From: Streptomyces albofaciens JCM 4342
GTDB taxonomy: Bacteria; Actinomycetota; Actinomycetes; Streptomycetales; Streptomycetaceae
DNA: 64,000 nucleotides
NCBI RefSeq assembly: GCF_008634025.1
Contig: NZ_PDCM01000001.1
Coordinates: 2,229,501-2,293,500 of the forward strand
Reading direction: 5' to 3'
The notes beneath the pieces are model-generated. The model searched no databases and was not told where the DNA came from. It was given only the letters and a program-made list of their open reading frames with translations. The first letter of the stretch is position 1; each line of letters begins with the position of its first letter. Below, piece after piece: positions 6,559 to 10,232 of this stretch. A program made the translations under genes and the position numbers.

Positions 6559-7725
6559 TCAGAGCGCGTACGGATCGGCGCGCACGGCGTCTCCGAGGTG
6601 CTTGAGGGCATCGCGGAGCGCGGGTGGGGCTCCGGTGGCGGCGAGGCCGTTGCGTACGGCCTCGTCCAGCAGCCGCCGGGTACGTACGGACGCGGTCTCA
6701 CCGACGGTGGGTACTATCGCGGCCACCAGCTCTTCGGCGTCGCGCCACGCGCGGAGGTGCAGTAGGCAGTCCAGGAGTCGGGCGGCGGCCATGCCCCGAT
6801 GCCCGACGACGGGTCCGCCTCGCTGCTCCGCGGAGCTCTGGAGGAAAGGGACGGCCCCTGCGTGGTCGCCCGCGGTCTGGATGGCGTGTCCGTGATGCCC
6901 GTCGATCTCATCAGTCAGGATCCACCACGACCACGCCGGATCTTGAGACGTGCCGTCGCACTCCAGCAGCGACCGCGCCCTGTCGAACAAGCGACCGGCC
7001 TCGGCGAGGGCACCGCAGCCCGCGAGCCCCTTCGCCTCCCGCACGCGGAAGATCGCCTCGACCCGGGGCGACAGGCGGTCCTGCTCGATGACCGCACGCG
7101 CCACGGCCAGCTCCTCGCGGCAGCGGCCGAGCCAGCCGGAATGCATCGCGATGTTCTGCAGAATGAGCAACTCCATCGACCGGTCGCCGGACAGCTTCGC
7201 CAGAAACAGCGCCTCTTGATTGAAACGCCGCGCGGCGTCGTGCAGCTCGGCGTCGAAGAGGGCCCAGCCGGCGACCTCGGCCAGCTCGCTCGCGGCCGAT
7301 CTGATGTCGCGTCCGTACGTGCTGTCGTAGTCGCCGTCTCCCAGCCGCCGGTGCACGCTTTTGAAGGTACGTGCCGCCACTTCGGCGATCGGCATTCCCG
7401 TCAACTCGTTGTCCAGAAAGATCAGCCGCTGGGACGCTTCCCGGATCGCCTGCGCGTACTCGGCCCCGCGCGTTTCGTTCAGACGCAGCAGCGGCACGCG
7501 CTCGTGCACGTCCTCGCGCAACCGCCCCACCGAAACGTCCAAGGCCGCGGCGATGAAGGGCAGCCATTCCCGGGGAACCCGCTTCCCCGTCTCCCACCTG
7601 CTGACTTCCTTCCGCGTCACAGGATCGCCGCAGACACCGGCGGCCTTGCAGACCTCACGCGCCAACCACGCTTGCGAGCGCTCGCCCCGGAGGTGACGGA
7701 TGCGAGCCCCGATGTTTTCCGGCAT
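6559..7725 (-). CDS. XRE-family transcriptional regulator with TPR-like C-terminal domain
   Basis: A 388-residue cytoplasmic protein. The N-terminal 70 residues form a Cro/CI helix-turn-helix (VTRKEVSRWETGKRVP is the recognition-helix region). The remaining 300 residues are helical and Ala/Leu-rich in a tetratricopeptide-like pattern, a layout common in Streptomyces regulators that sense peptides or protein partners. The ATG at 7725 is chosen because the helix-turn-helix begins directly after it. GGAG lies only 2 bases upstream, so the message may be leaderless. It is transcribed away from the small peptide and PIMT-like methyltransferase genes, so it is a plausible regulator of them. Confidence 0.82.
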   Translation of the reverse strand: MPENIGARIRHLRGERSQAWLAREVCKAAGVCGDPVTRKEVSRWETGKRVPREWLPFIAAALDVSVGRLREDVHERVPLLRLNETRGAEYAQAIREASQRLIFLDNELTGMPIAEVAARTFKSVHRRLGDGDYDSTYGRDIRSAASELAEVAGWALFDAELHDAARRFNQEALFLAKLSGDRSMELLILQNIAMHSGWLGRCREELAVARAVIEQDRLSPRVEAIFRVREAKGLAGCGALAEAGRLFDRARSLLECDGTSQDPAWSWWILTDEIDGHHGHAIQTAGDHAGAVPFLQSSAEQRGGPVVGHRGMAAARLLDCLLHLRAWRDAEELVAAIVPTVGETASVRTRRLLDEAVRNGLAATGAPPALRDALKHLGDAVRADPYAL

Positions 7726-7810
7726 GACTCCATACTGGCCGACACGGGGCCGACAAGAGGCCGGCATGGGGCGGCTGTTGTACGTGGTGGCGTGGCGACA
7801 CGATTGCCTC

Positions 7811-8010
7811 ATGAACCAATACCGAGGAACCCTCGACCCCCCCCCGTCCACCTGCTGGATCCGTTCGCAGGAGACATCAACCCCATTCCGAGGGACGGCT
7901 GCGCCCGTTGCGCGGCGGAGGCCGCGCGGCGGGAGGGGGCGCGGGATGCGGGGCATCTCTTCGTGGCCGTGGAAGCGAGCAATGAGATTCGTCGGCACCC
8001 GCGTCACCGG
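7811..8010 (+). pseudogene. Candidate small CxxC protein, frame broken at a run of nine C
   Basis: From 7846 to about 8010 one frame has coding-like third positions and reads DPFAGDINPIPRDGCARC, then a charged helix and SNEIRRHP. It resembles small CxxC proteins I recall beside XRE genes in Streptomyces. The only ATG nearby (7811) is in another frame; one extra C in the C9 run at 7837-7845 would join them. Otherwise the frame could start at GTG 7792 or TTG 7804 without good ribosome-binding sites. After about 8010 codon bias is lost, but no stop occurs until 8211, so the natural end also seems lost. It may be a decayed gene or one switched by slippage. Confidence 0.35.
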
Positions 8011-8082
8011 GTTGTTCAGGGGGACGTTAGTGGTGCGGGAGTGGGTCCCGGTCCGGTACAGCACAGGCGAGGAGCGTACGTC

Positions 8083-8211
8083 GTGGCTTGGTGGTTGACG
8101 AAGAACGGGAATCCGCAGGACGACAGCGACAGCGGCAACAAGCACGGGGGCGGCGGCTCGGACGAGGGCGGCAACACGAACGACGGCCAGGGCCCGGCGG
8201 AAGGCCGGTGA
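8083..8211 (+). CDS. Short acidic Gly/Asn/Asp-rich peptide, candidate RiPP precursor
   Basis: A 42-residue peptide starting with GTG, preceded by GGCGAGGAG ending 9 bases upstream. It starts with two Trp (MAWWLTKNGNP) and continues with a Gly/Asp/Asn/Ser tail including DDSDSGN, SDEGGN and NDGQ. It has no membrane span or fold. Its stop overlaps the GTG of the PIMT-like methyltransferase (GTGA), so the two are translationally coupled, as with a precursor and its modifying enzyme. The Asp34-Gly35 pair is the type of site where methylation by a PIMT homologue yields an aspartimide. The precursor role is inferred from context and composition only. Confidence 0.55.
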   Translation: MAWWLTKNGNPQDDSDSGNKHGGGGSDEGGNTNDGQGPAEGR

Positions 8212-9383
8212 CCGTGCACGAGGAAATGGCGGCGGGTCCGGAAGGGCTCGCCGCTGTGCTCATGGGGAAGGGGGCGCTGACGAGTGACTGGCTGCCGTCC
8301 TACGAGGCGGTGCCGCGTCATCGGTTTGTGCCCGAGGTGATCTGGCCCGGTCGTGGGGGTGGAAATCGGCAGGGTGATCGGGTGATGCGTGGTGAGGAGC
8401 CCGAGGCGTGGTGGGTGGCTGTTCATCGTGACGCGCCGATTACGACGCAATGGGATGACGGGGAGTACACCGGGCCCGGGAAGGGGCGCATTCCGTCCAG
8501 TTCCAGTTCGATGCCGACGATGGTGTTTTCGATGCTGGGCGCGTTGAGCGTGGAAAAGGGGCATCGGGTGCTGGAGATCGGCACCGGTACCGGGTGGAAC
8601 GCGGCGCTGCTGTCCCACCGGGTCGGGGCGGAGAATGTCGTCACCGTGGAGGTGGATGAAGGTAGCGCCCGGGACGCGCGGCGGCGCCTTGCGGAGGCGG
8701 GGTTCGAGCCGCTGGCCGTCGTCGGGGACGGGGCCGAGGGATACGCCGAGGGCGGACCGTACGATCGCGTGATCGCCACGTGTTCCATCGGCCGTGTGCC
8801 GCGGGCATGGGTGACGCAGACGAAGCCGGGCGGGATTGTGGTCGCCCCTTGGGGGCCGGTCTACGGGGGCGAGGCGGTGGTCCGGCTTTCCGTGGCCGGA
8901 GACGGGACGGCGGCGGGTCGGTTTGTGGGGGCCTCGGCATTTATGCGGCTGCGTGCTCAGCGTTCCGTCCGTAAACACGTACGGGAATATCTCGGAGGTC
9001 GTGATTGGCCGGCGGATGGGGTGCGCGGTACGACCTTTCTTTCCCCGGATGCGGTGGGGGACTGGCCGGTCATGTTCGCCATCGGGGTGCAAGTGCCGAA
9101 TGCGTTTCCGTGGATGGAACCGTACGAGGACGGCTCCTATACGTTGTGGCTCCGGGATACGGCTGTCACCTCGTGGGCGACGGTCGATTACGTACCGGGG
9201 TGTGTGGAGTTCGAGGTTTATCAGAGCGGTCCCCGGCGGCTGTGGGATGAAGTGGTTGCTGCCCATCGTTGGTGGGAGGGGCGGGGAAGGCCGGGGTTTG
9301 AGCGGTTCGGGCTGACCGTGGACGGGGGCGGCGAGTGGGTGTGGCTGGATTCGCCGGACAGGCCGGTGTCGGTGGTGGGCTGA
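8208..9383 (+). CDS. PIMT-like (protein-L-isoaspartate O-methyltransferase family) methyltransferase with C-terminal extension
   Basis: A 391-residue SAM-dependent enzyme. VPRHRFVP (residues 35-42) matches the PIMT substrate-side motif, and VLEIGTGTGW (121-130) is SAM motif I. The loop that is GQTISQP in housekeeping PIMTs is replaced here by a Ser run, SSSSSMP (97-103), as I recall for PIMT homologues in RiPP clusters. The protein is about 180 residues longer than repair PIMTs, with a C-terminal domain from about 240 rich in Trp and aromatic residues. The GTG at 8208 overlaps the stop of the short acidic peptide. Third positions are less GC-rich than in flanking genes, suggesting acquisition. 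It is more likely a peptide-modifying enzyme than a repair enzyme. Confidence in the fold is high, in the role moderate. Confidence 0.8.
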   Translation: MTVHEEMAAGPEGLAAVLMGKGALTSDWLPSYEAVPRHRFVPEVIWPGRGGGNRQGDRVMRGEEPEAWWVAVHRDAPITTQWDDGEYTGPGKGRIPSSSSSMPTMVFSMLGALSVEKGHRVLEIGTGTGWNAALLSHRVGAENVVTVEVDEGSARDARRRLAEAGFEPLAVVGDGAEGYAEGGPYDRVIATCSIGRVPRAWVTQTKPGGIVVAPWGPVYGGEAVVRLSVAGDGTAAGRFVGASAFMRLRAQRSVRKHVREYLGGRDWPADGVRGTTFLSPDAVGDWPVMFAIGVQVPNAFPWMEPYEDGSYTLWLRDTAVTSWATVDYVPGCVEFEVYQSGPRRLWDEVVAAHRWWEGRGRPGFERFGLTVDGGGEWVWLDSPDRPVSVVG

Positions 9384-9419: not shown

Positions 9420-10232
9420 TTACGCCCCCCCTGCCCCACCCACCTGCGGAATCTGCGGTTCCCCCTGCCAGAACCGGAACAGTTCCTGGCCCCAGTATGT
9501 GTCCCAGTTGCTGACGCCGAGGCCGCGGAGGATCGCGTCGACCGCGTCGAAGAAGACGTGGTTGATTTCCGGGACCCACAGCAGGCCGAAGACGGCGATC
9601 AGGCCGAAGGGGGCGAAGGGTTCCACCTGGCGGCGGATGGTGTGGGAGAGCCAGGGTTCGAGGACGCCGTAGCCGTCGAGGCCGGGGACCGGGAGGAAGT
9701 TCAGGATGGCGGCGGTCACCTGGAGGAGGGCCAGGAAGGCCAGGGCGTAGCGGAAGTCGCGTGGGACGTCGTCCATGGCGCCGAGCCAGAAGGGGGCCGA
9801 GACGACCGCGGCGAAGAGGACGTTCGTCAGGGGGCCGGCCGCCGAGATCAGGCTGTGCCGCCAGCGGCCCCGGATGCGGCCGCGTTCGATGAAGACCGCG
9901 CCGCCCGGCAGGCCGATGCCGCCCAGGATCACGAAGATCACCGGGAGGACGATGCTGAGGAGCGCGTGGGTGTATTTGAGGGGGTTGAGGGTGAGGTAGC
10001 CCTTGGCGCCGATGGAGATGTCGCCGCTGTGCAGGGCGGTACGGGCGTGGGCGTACTCGTGGAGGCACAGCGAGACGATCCACCCGGAGACGACGAACAG
10101 GAAGACCGCGAAGCCCGGGCTGGCCGCGAGGCGTCCGGTCCAGACGGCCCACCCCGACACCGCCATGACGGCGACGAGCGCGAGGAAGACCGGGCTGACG
10201 CGGCGGTCGGCGCGCTGTGCTGCTGTGGTCAT
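9420..10232 (-). CDS. Membrane zinc metalloprotease, site-2 protease family (M50)
   Basis: A 270-residue multi-span protein. HEYAH at residues 58-62 is the HExxH zinc motif inside a membrane helix. FLPVPGLDGYG near residue 195 is the NPDG-type motif giving the third zinc ligand. Such proteases cleave membrane-spanning substrates, often anti-sigma factors, but short actinobacterial members without a PDZ domain have no assigned substrate. The ATG at 10232 fits the first span (VSPVFLALVAVMAVSGWAVW); the longer open frame upstream is low-complexity and non-coding in character. It is convergent with the PIMT-like gene. Confidence 0.85.
   Translation of the reverse strand: MTTAAQRADRRVSPVFLALVAVMAVSGWAVWTGRLAASPGFAVFLFVVSGWIVSLCLHEYAHARTALHSGDISIGAKGYLTLNPLKYTHALLSIVLPVIFVILGGIGLPGGAVFIERGRIRGRWRHSLISAAGPLTNVLFAAVVSAPFWLGAMDDVPRDFRYALAFLALLQVTAAILNFLPVPGLDGYGVLEPWLSHTIRRQVEPFAPFGLIAVFGLLWVPEINHVFFDAVDAILRGLGVSNWDTYWGQELFRFWQGEPQIPQVGGAGGA

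Follow-up and report, generated by a model that had tools for sequence, protein, structure and literature searches.

The stretch examined here (hereafter the window) is a 64 kb segment of the Streptomyces albofaciens JCM 4342 genome (G000 C1:2229501-2293500), and contains a short peptide gene and an adjoining methyltransferase gene that appear to constitute a two-gene cassette for a ribosomally synthesized and post-translationally modified peptide (RiPP). In window coordinates, the peptide gene (8083..8211, forward strand) extends from a GTG at 8083 to a TGA at 8211 and codes for 42 amino acids plus the stop, namely VAWWLTKNGNPQDDSDSGNKHGGGGSDEGGNTNDGQGPAEGR; reading of the sequence ahead of it reveals a putative ribosome-binding site, AGGAG (8070..8074, forward strand), 8 nucleotides before the GTG. 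The second gene (8208..9383, forward strand) overlaps the first through a shared GTGA, likewise starts with GTG, and encodes a PIMT-like L-aspartyl O-methyltransferase (PAMT) of 391 amino acids. A gene on the reverse strand (6559..7725), transcribed away from this pair, codes for an XRE-type helix-turn-helix (HTH) regulator of 388 amino acids, which is NsdA-family and TPR-like as judged by matches to NCBIfam NsdA_fam_reg (158 bits, cut-off 75) and Pfam HTH_31 (27.1 bits, cut-off 27). An initial annotation of this DNA had described a 42-codon peptide coupled by GTGA to a long PIMT-family enzyme, and this is confirmed at 8083-8211 and 8208-9383; the divergent XRE regulator that it reported is also present, although the interval it gave, starting at 7725, takes in just the 5' end of that gene.

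Searches in both directions indicate that the peptide and the enzyme are conserved as a unit, and a lack of such pairing was one of the conditions under which the initial annotation was to be refuted. With the peptide as query we recovered 33 places in 31 of 392 Streptomyces genomes, the matches in the 30 genomes other than that of the window having E-values as low as 9e-18. Inspection of every one of these places (the 30 loci L042-L071; L075 and L077, which are second places of G104 and G050; and L141 of G237) showed a PAMT gene 3' of the peptide on the same strand at 33/33, mostly within 12 nucleotides and at most 118 nucleotides away, with the PAMT frame of L071 being interrupted. The reverse search, covering 199 genomes, yielded 25 PAMT places at 55-100% identity, 23 with an intact peptide and 2 with a damaged one. 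The intact peptides include the diverged versions of L019 and L140 (EDDEDHGARHGGGG and QENDGQSGAGHGGKG); in the damaged cases either the N-terminal half of the peptide is gone (G047 C133) or the peptide is fused in frame to a PAMT without its first ~85 residues (G012, L028). Spacing is tight, with a 4-nucleotide overlap in 14 of 38 pairs and abutting genes in another 12. A fusion of peptide and enzyme was also sought among long homologues, the longest of which (P0096 and P0097) proved to be extended C-terminally instead. Among the best 120 of 2735 protein-database matches, the nearest PAMT is from Streptomyces rimosus (95%) and relatives at 64-77% occur in Kitasatospora, Actinacidiphila, Allostreptomyces and others; a class-wide search of 296 genomes gave, among the matches listed, no PAMT above 50% identity outside the genus. 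Many, though not all, of the PAMTs at or below 50% identity are preceded by a different Asp-containing peptide that is often Pro-rich (e.g. ...PPTPDGGPGVPNPPK), and the peptide upstream in L109 resembles a type II zinc-ribbon precursor.

A multiple sequence alignment of 57 peptides (38 from the loci and 19 from the protein database, with organisms that are partly the same) showed that Asp13, Asp14 and His21 are invariant; a second refuting condition, the lack of a conserved Asp among the precursors, is thus answered by two such residues. Asp34 is Asp in 56/57, and the exceptional L021 can be realigned by eye to retain it, while the position of Glu40 in the window peptide is Asp in 47/57. The spacing D-x6-HGG is found in 58/60 peptides (the alignment and three more), and the two that miss it nevertheless retain the Asp, L026 having an insertion and P0005 an HGD; L140 has Asn at position 13 and keeps Asp14. 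Beyond the family, a D-x6-HG peptide was seen in 4/33 loci (L095, L098, L102 and L115). An in-frame scan of the peptide against NCBIfam and Pfam found no model that covers it. Two residues stand out as candidates for modification. As Asp14 is invariant and the D-x6-HGG spacing nearly fixed, Asp14 in QDD-S (codon 8122..8124, forward strand) is the best anchored, and we give it an even chance of being the modified residue. Asp34 in ND-G (codon 8182..8184, forward strand), which is followed by Gly, the more usual next residue, is a somewhat weaker candidate; the initial annotation had chosen Asp34-Gly35 as the natural target, and the residue is indeed conserved, but conservation does not favour it over Asp13 and Asp14, which are conserved to the same degree or more.

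Comparison of substitutions points to the peptide as the selected product of its gene. For 32 pairs, dividing mean pN by mean pS (non-synonymous over synonymous differences) across 27 core codons gives 0.165 for the peptide, versus 0.46 for PAMT, and the other two reading frames of the same DNA give 2.0 and 2.3. As many as 24/27 core codon columns are variable, 17 of those 24 being purely silent, and variability is concentrated at the third codon position (0.204, versus 0.045 and 0.051 at the other two). This count leaves out six of the 38 pairs, namely L019, L021, L023, L025, L026 and L071, whose core departs from the fixed pattern, as well as L070, where an intact peptide could not be matched. 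By these values, purifying selection acts more strongly on the peptide core than on PAMT.

Examination of PAMT reveals features of RiPP-associated enzymes. Its best NCBIfam match is TIGR04188, the methyltransferase of ATP-grasp peptide maturase systems, at 321 bits and hence below the cut-off of 380. The Pfam PCMT match (98.7 bits) ends at residue 242 and is followed by a C-terminal extension of ~150 residues (about residues 240-391; 8925..9380, forward strand). Sequence matches to solved structures stop at residue 257 or earlier, and profile matches to solved PIMTs at 239 or earlier; the extension is therefore not covered by solved structures. Within it lies WEGRGRP (residues 356-362; 9273..9293, forward strand), an instance of the WxxxGxP motif described for RiPP-associated PIMT homologues in the main text of PMC13001092 and present in 32/36 family PAMTs. 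The SSSSSMP loop (residues 97-103; 8496..8516, forward strand), to which the initial annotation had drawn attention as a catalytic Ser run, is present but normal for the family: 120 homologues include SSSNSMP (50), TSSNSMP (27) and SSSSSMP (18). In a quick maximum-likelihood tree of 73 sequences, the 37 family PAMTs all fall into a single clade (SH-aLRT 99), whose sister group (SH-aLRT 99) contains 13 of the 14 rows labelled Pro-rich by eye, the 14th, L118, being placed elsewhere. The extension, the motif and the grouping with other peptide-coupled PAMTs are in line with the aspartimide-type RiPP locus initially suggested. A PADLOC search gave only a partial match of the SAM fold of PAMT to mad2 (58 bits) and none for the peptide or the regulator.

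The presence of a regulator also recurs, and its kind varies. We surveyed the 3.6 kb upstream of 23 places whose flanks were long enough (the window and 22 others) with a local HTH model, which matched in 20/23, versus 0/39 control windows farther out in the same loci; the former count is partly circular, as 14 of the 23 places went into building the model, and the model misses the regulator of the window itself. Among 19 regulators picked by eye, 17 score above an HTH cut-off in Pfam, whereas that of L075 falls narrowly under it (25.9 of 27) and that of L038 is above the cut-off for DUF5919 only; those of L084, L085, L087 and L089 are recognized by the local model alone. In the Pro-rich group, from which no locus was used in the model and for which no control windows were available, an HTH gene occurs in 9/19 loci. 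The kinds encountered are HTH proteins with TPR matches, HTH-DUF5753 proteins and a DUF5919 type. For the HTH-TPR regulators we also considered an arbitrium-like receptor-ligand pair with the peptide, and thought it unlikely because unlike regulators precede a nearly identical peptide.

Phages are able to carry biosynthetic genes, and copies of the cassette are found on them. PHROG 13505, a methyltransferase of Streptomyces phages, matches PAMT over its full length (485 bits). Eight records, corresponding to five phages of the host S. venezuelae ATCC 10712 (PapayaSalad, Austintatious, Ididsumtinwong, Bioscum and Alderaan; Austintatiousvirus), encode a PAMT at ~59% identity, and reading upstream of these genes located in each phage a peptide of the form MSGKHGGGSGSGSGGSQQDDS...HGGGGSETSGGNSSDGSGP.. 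that ends 8 nucleotides ahead of PAMT. The phage annotations call the enzyme simply a methyltransferase and the peptide a hypothetical protein. The window peptide as query found no match in the phage collection, probably because it is short and of low complexity. The phage cassette has the repressor-side genes on one side and the endolysin on the other, and is encoded on the opposite strand from the late genes. In PapayaSalad, Ididsumtinwong and Bioscum its neighbours include an annotated integrase; none is annotated in the stretches read of Austintatious and Alderaan, the latter having apparently lost its integrase and become lytic according to the text of PMC7650747. Eight phages are alike over the tail region, and three of them, SV1, Picard and Mojorita (79-88%), are without PAMT; in these the slot holds other genes behind a divergent annotated regulator, which has no Pfam match in SV1 and is of the DUF5753 type in Picard. 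The region that runs from the small genes via the peptide and PAMT to the tail genes is 94% alike in PapayaSalad and Ididsumtinwong, but the regulator genes of the two have only a short stretch of DNA in common. PapayaSalad has as its regulator an HTH protein that is 37-48% identical to HTH-TPR regulators from chromosomal loci; Ididsumtinwong and Austintatious have nearly identical DUF5753 regulators; and that of Alderaan is of the DUF5919 type, with 74% identity to the gene beside the S. musisoli cassette (L038).

Related copies occur on bacterial contigs. In G004 (37,780 bases) and G237 the cassette is surrounded by phage genes, mostly 84-98% identical to PapayaSalad, while G367 (L087) represents a second phage lineage, with tail genes 41-59% alike and a peptide of the window's kind; the PAMT of IMG/VR locus L143 is identical to that of G367. 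The phage copies occupy two positions in a tree of 53 PAMTs, two rows of which duplicate others and in which the label chromosomal stands for any copy that is not known to come from a phage. Further, a linear plasmid of Streptomyces sp. NBC_00239 carries an HTH gene, the peptide and PAMT. Third-position GC in the window is 0.772 for PAMT versus a mean of 0.926 for 34 gene-like open reading frames (a set pre-filtered at values > 0.8 and including some frames that overlap one another), and the mobility that the initial annotation had read from this difference gains support from the phage and plasmid copies. A prophage in the window was considered and rejected: out of 20 phage protein queries from PapayaSalad and relatives, the only ones with a match in the 64 kb are PAMT and one type of regulator, and the copy in the window therefore looks chromosomal, with the check limited to PapayaSalad-related queries and unrelated phage types not searched for.

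Several other features accompany these loci. PapayaSalad (L145 5675-5768), Ididsumtinwong (L148 5675-5771) and Bioscum (L163 2175-2271) each have a tRNA gene that separates the peptide gene from the small genes. The phage cassette is accompanied by two small proteins of 82 and 75 amino acids (L145 5004-5252 and 5261-5488), for which Pfam gave no match; in the loci that we searched, their relatives were seen only in the phage-like L152-L154, of which L154 (G374) holds a decayed cassette with broken pieces of PAMT and regulator and is an apparent prophage remnant. L090 (G224) has two facing PAMT genes, the second 48% identical to the PapayaSalad PAMT. In the window, a small gene at 7811-8082, between the regulator and the peptide, shows an apparent frameshift at a nine-C run (7837-7845) relative to L009, be it genuine or a sequencing error, and its remainder continues in frame into the peptide; the L009 form gave no Pfam match. 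An M50-type peptidase gene at 9420-10232 is convergent with PAMT, and none was seen among the recurrent neighbours.

Together, the above observations lead us to propose, with a probability of roughly 0.82, that the two genes form a RiPP cassette, imiditide or type I pamtide in kind, which has a regulator of its own. The modification of the peptide, its site, the control by the regulator and the biological role are what we infer here from sequence comparisons. The peptide and PAMT would be made together, probably coupled through the GTGA overlap, and PAMT would methylate the side chain of one Asp of the peptide; the methyl ester would then close to an aspartimide, which would open mainly to isoaspartate, and no further tailoring enzyme would be needed. 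The divergent HTH regulator may control the pair, and the cassette would move as a module, sometimes on phages and plasmids. Certain observations weigh against this proposal. For several distant PAMTs no plausible peptide was seen upstream, and the validated enzymes SpaM and NmaM were outside our tree. The precursor is Pro-poor: the 38 peptides contain 30.7% Gly, 14.2% Asp and 4.2% Pro, versus 17.3%, 10.2% and 16.8% in the published type I set (main text of PMC10787088), the last value being a set average rather than a stated criterion. The family is also acidic, its net charge (K+R minus D+E) being -9 to 0 over the 38 peptides, whereas imiditides are described in the main text of PMC13001092, by description only, as strongly positive and recognized through charge-charge contacts; ten hand-picked peptides of related loci range from -5 to +4. 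Peptide starts for these composition and charge counts were chosen by script.

Finally, the peptide could conceivably be a bound cofactor or activator rather than a substrate. Its core is nearly constant across PAMTs down to ~54% identity, which is unusual for the core of a natural product, and the peptide might accordingly be a small partner of PAMT, its activator or inhibitor, with another protein as the true substrate; we consider this improbable, given that related PAMTs carry short Asp-containing peptides in the same position and that NmaA and SpaA, both type I peptides, have been published as substrates (main texts of PMC13001092 and PMC10787088). The PCMT fold and the matches to repair PIMTs of known structure might instead suggest that PAMT repairs damaged proteins and that the short frame is incidental. 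This is highly improbable in view of the conservation of the coupled peptide in both search directions, its purifying selection, the C-terminal extension and WxxxGxP of PAMT, and scores far under the cut-offs of NCBIfam repair equivalogs (81-106 bits for four listed models with cut-offs of 159-359, among them 105.8 of 188 and 81.9 of 159). That the short frame is a leader or attenuator for PAMT translation without a product of its own, as the overlap or abutment in 26/38 pairs might hint, is the least credible alternative, since amino acids are conserved while codons change and the conserved residues include Asp, His and Gly.

With regard to the function of the proposed RiPP, a conserved target or a phage-linked role in competition is a better fit than a diversifying antibiotic, given how little the peptide core varies; a nearly constant core points to one fixed target. 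More speculatively, and with less than even odds, the Asp-modified peptide could be a lysogenic-conversion or competition factor of Streptomyces phages, encoded by an HTH-gated imiditide cassette in a cargo slot. The slot would then lie beside lysogeny and lysis genes, with regulators being exchanged and the peptide kept constant, and chromosomes would hold the cassette too. That a constant pair stands behind HTH regulators which can be exchanged offers a hint of how such cassettes are controlled. To us the phage link is the interesting part of the finding: a 2026 review (PMC13001092, main text) regards linking aspartimidylated RiPPs to function as the bigger challenge, and the phage-borne copy, with S. 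venezuelae ATCC 10712 as host, opens the role of an imiditide to testing.

Among known systems that employ a PIMT homologue, group 13 graspetides share TIGR04188 as best match, below its cut-off. Matches to the graspetide ATP-grasp TIGR04187 occur in 28/31 genomes with the peptide, many of them draft assemblies, but no match shares a contig with the peptide at a distance of 260 kb or less; a graspetide reading was set aside on this ground. Lanthipeptide and lasso readings were set aside as well, there being no LanC-like or Asn-synthase-like gene at E <= 0.001 within the window, for which the window genome alone was searched. These results agree with the initial annotation, which saw no cyclase, ATP-grasp or lanthionine enzyme. 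Cysimiditides (type II pamtides) have two-gene PAMT loci as here, but their precursors bear two CxxCxGxG motifs; the window peptide is without Cys, and this reading too was set aside. The same genome contains a second imiditide-like locus (C1:1178699-1179772; L002, L138) with the peptide MAKKGGDDSGRPDTSDSDGHRDRPPGPTKPYEPPKG, flanked on either side by HTH_31 genes no farther than about 1.5 kb away, as well as PIMT-homologous stretches at C1:67154-69441 and C2:2171819-2174424, one adjoining a graspetide-type ATP-grasp gene and one a LanC-like gene.

The closest likeness is to imiditides (type I pamtides), represented by NmaA-NmaM of Nonomuraea maritima and SpaA-SpaM of Streptomyces sparsogenes. 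According to the main texts of PMC13001092 and PMC10787088, these loci have two genes and no cyclase, as here, their PAMTs modify linear precursors, and they occur most often in Streptomyces and Actinomadura; neither main text contains the words phage, virus, plasmid, regulator or XRE. They share with the window locus the PAMT C-terminal extension of >100 amino acids and WxxxGxP, and their precursors, of ~45 amino acids with a conserved Asp near Gly, are like the window peptide. The published count of 1,414 type I pamtides may well include the family described here. Loci with a PIMT homologue as the sole tailoring enzyme are an already published class, and on our best reading the window locus is imiditide-like, with a Pro-poor, acidic variant of the precursor that has a QDDS...HGGGG core.

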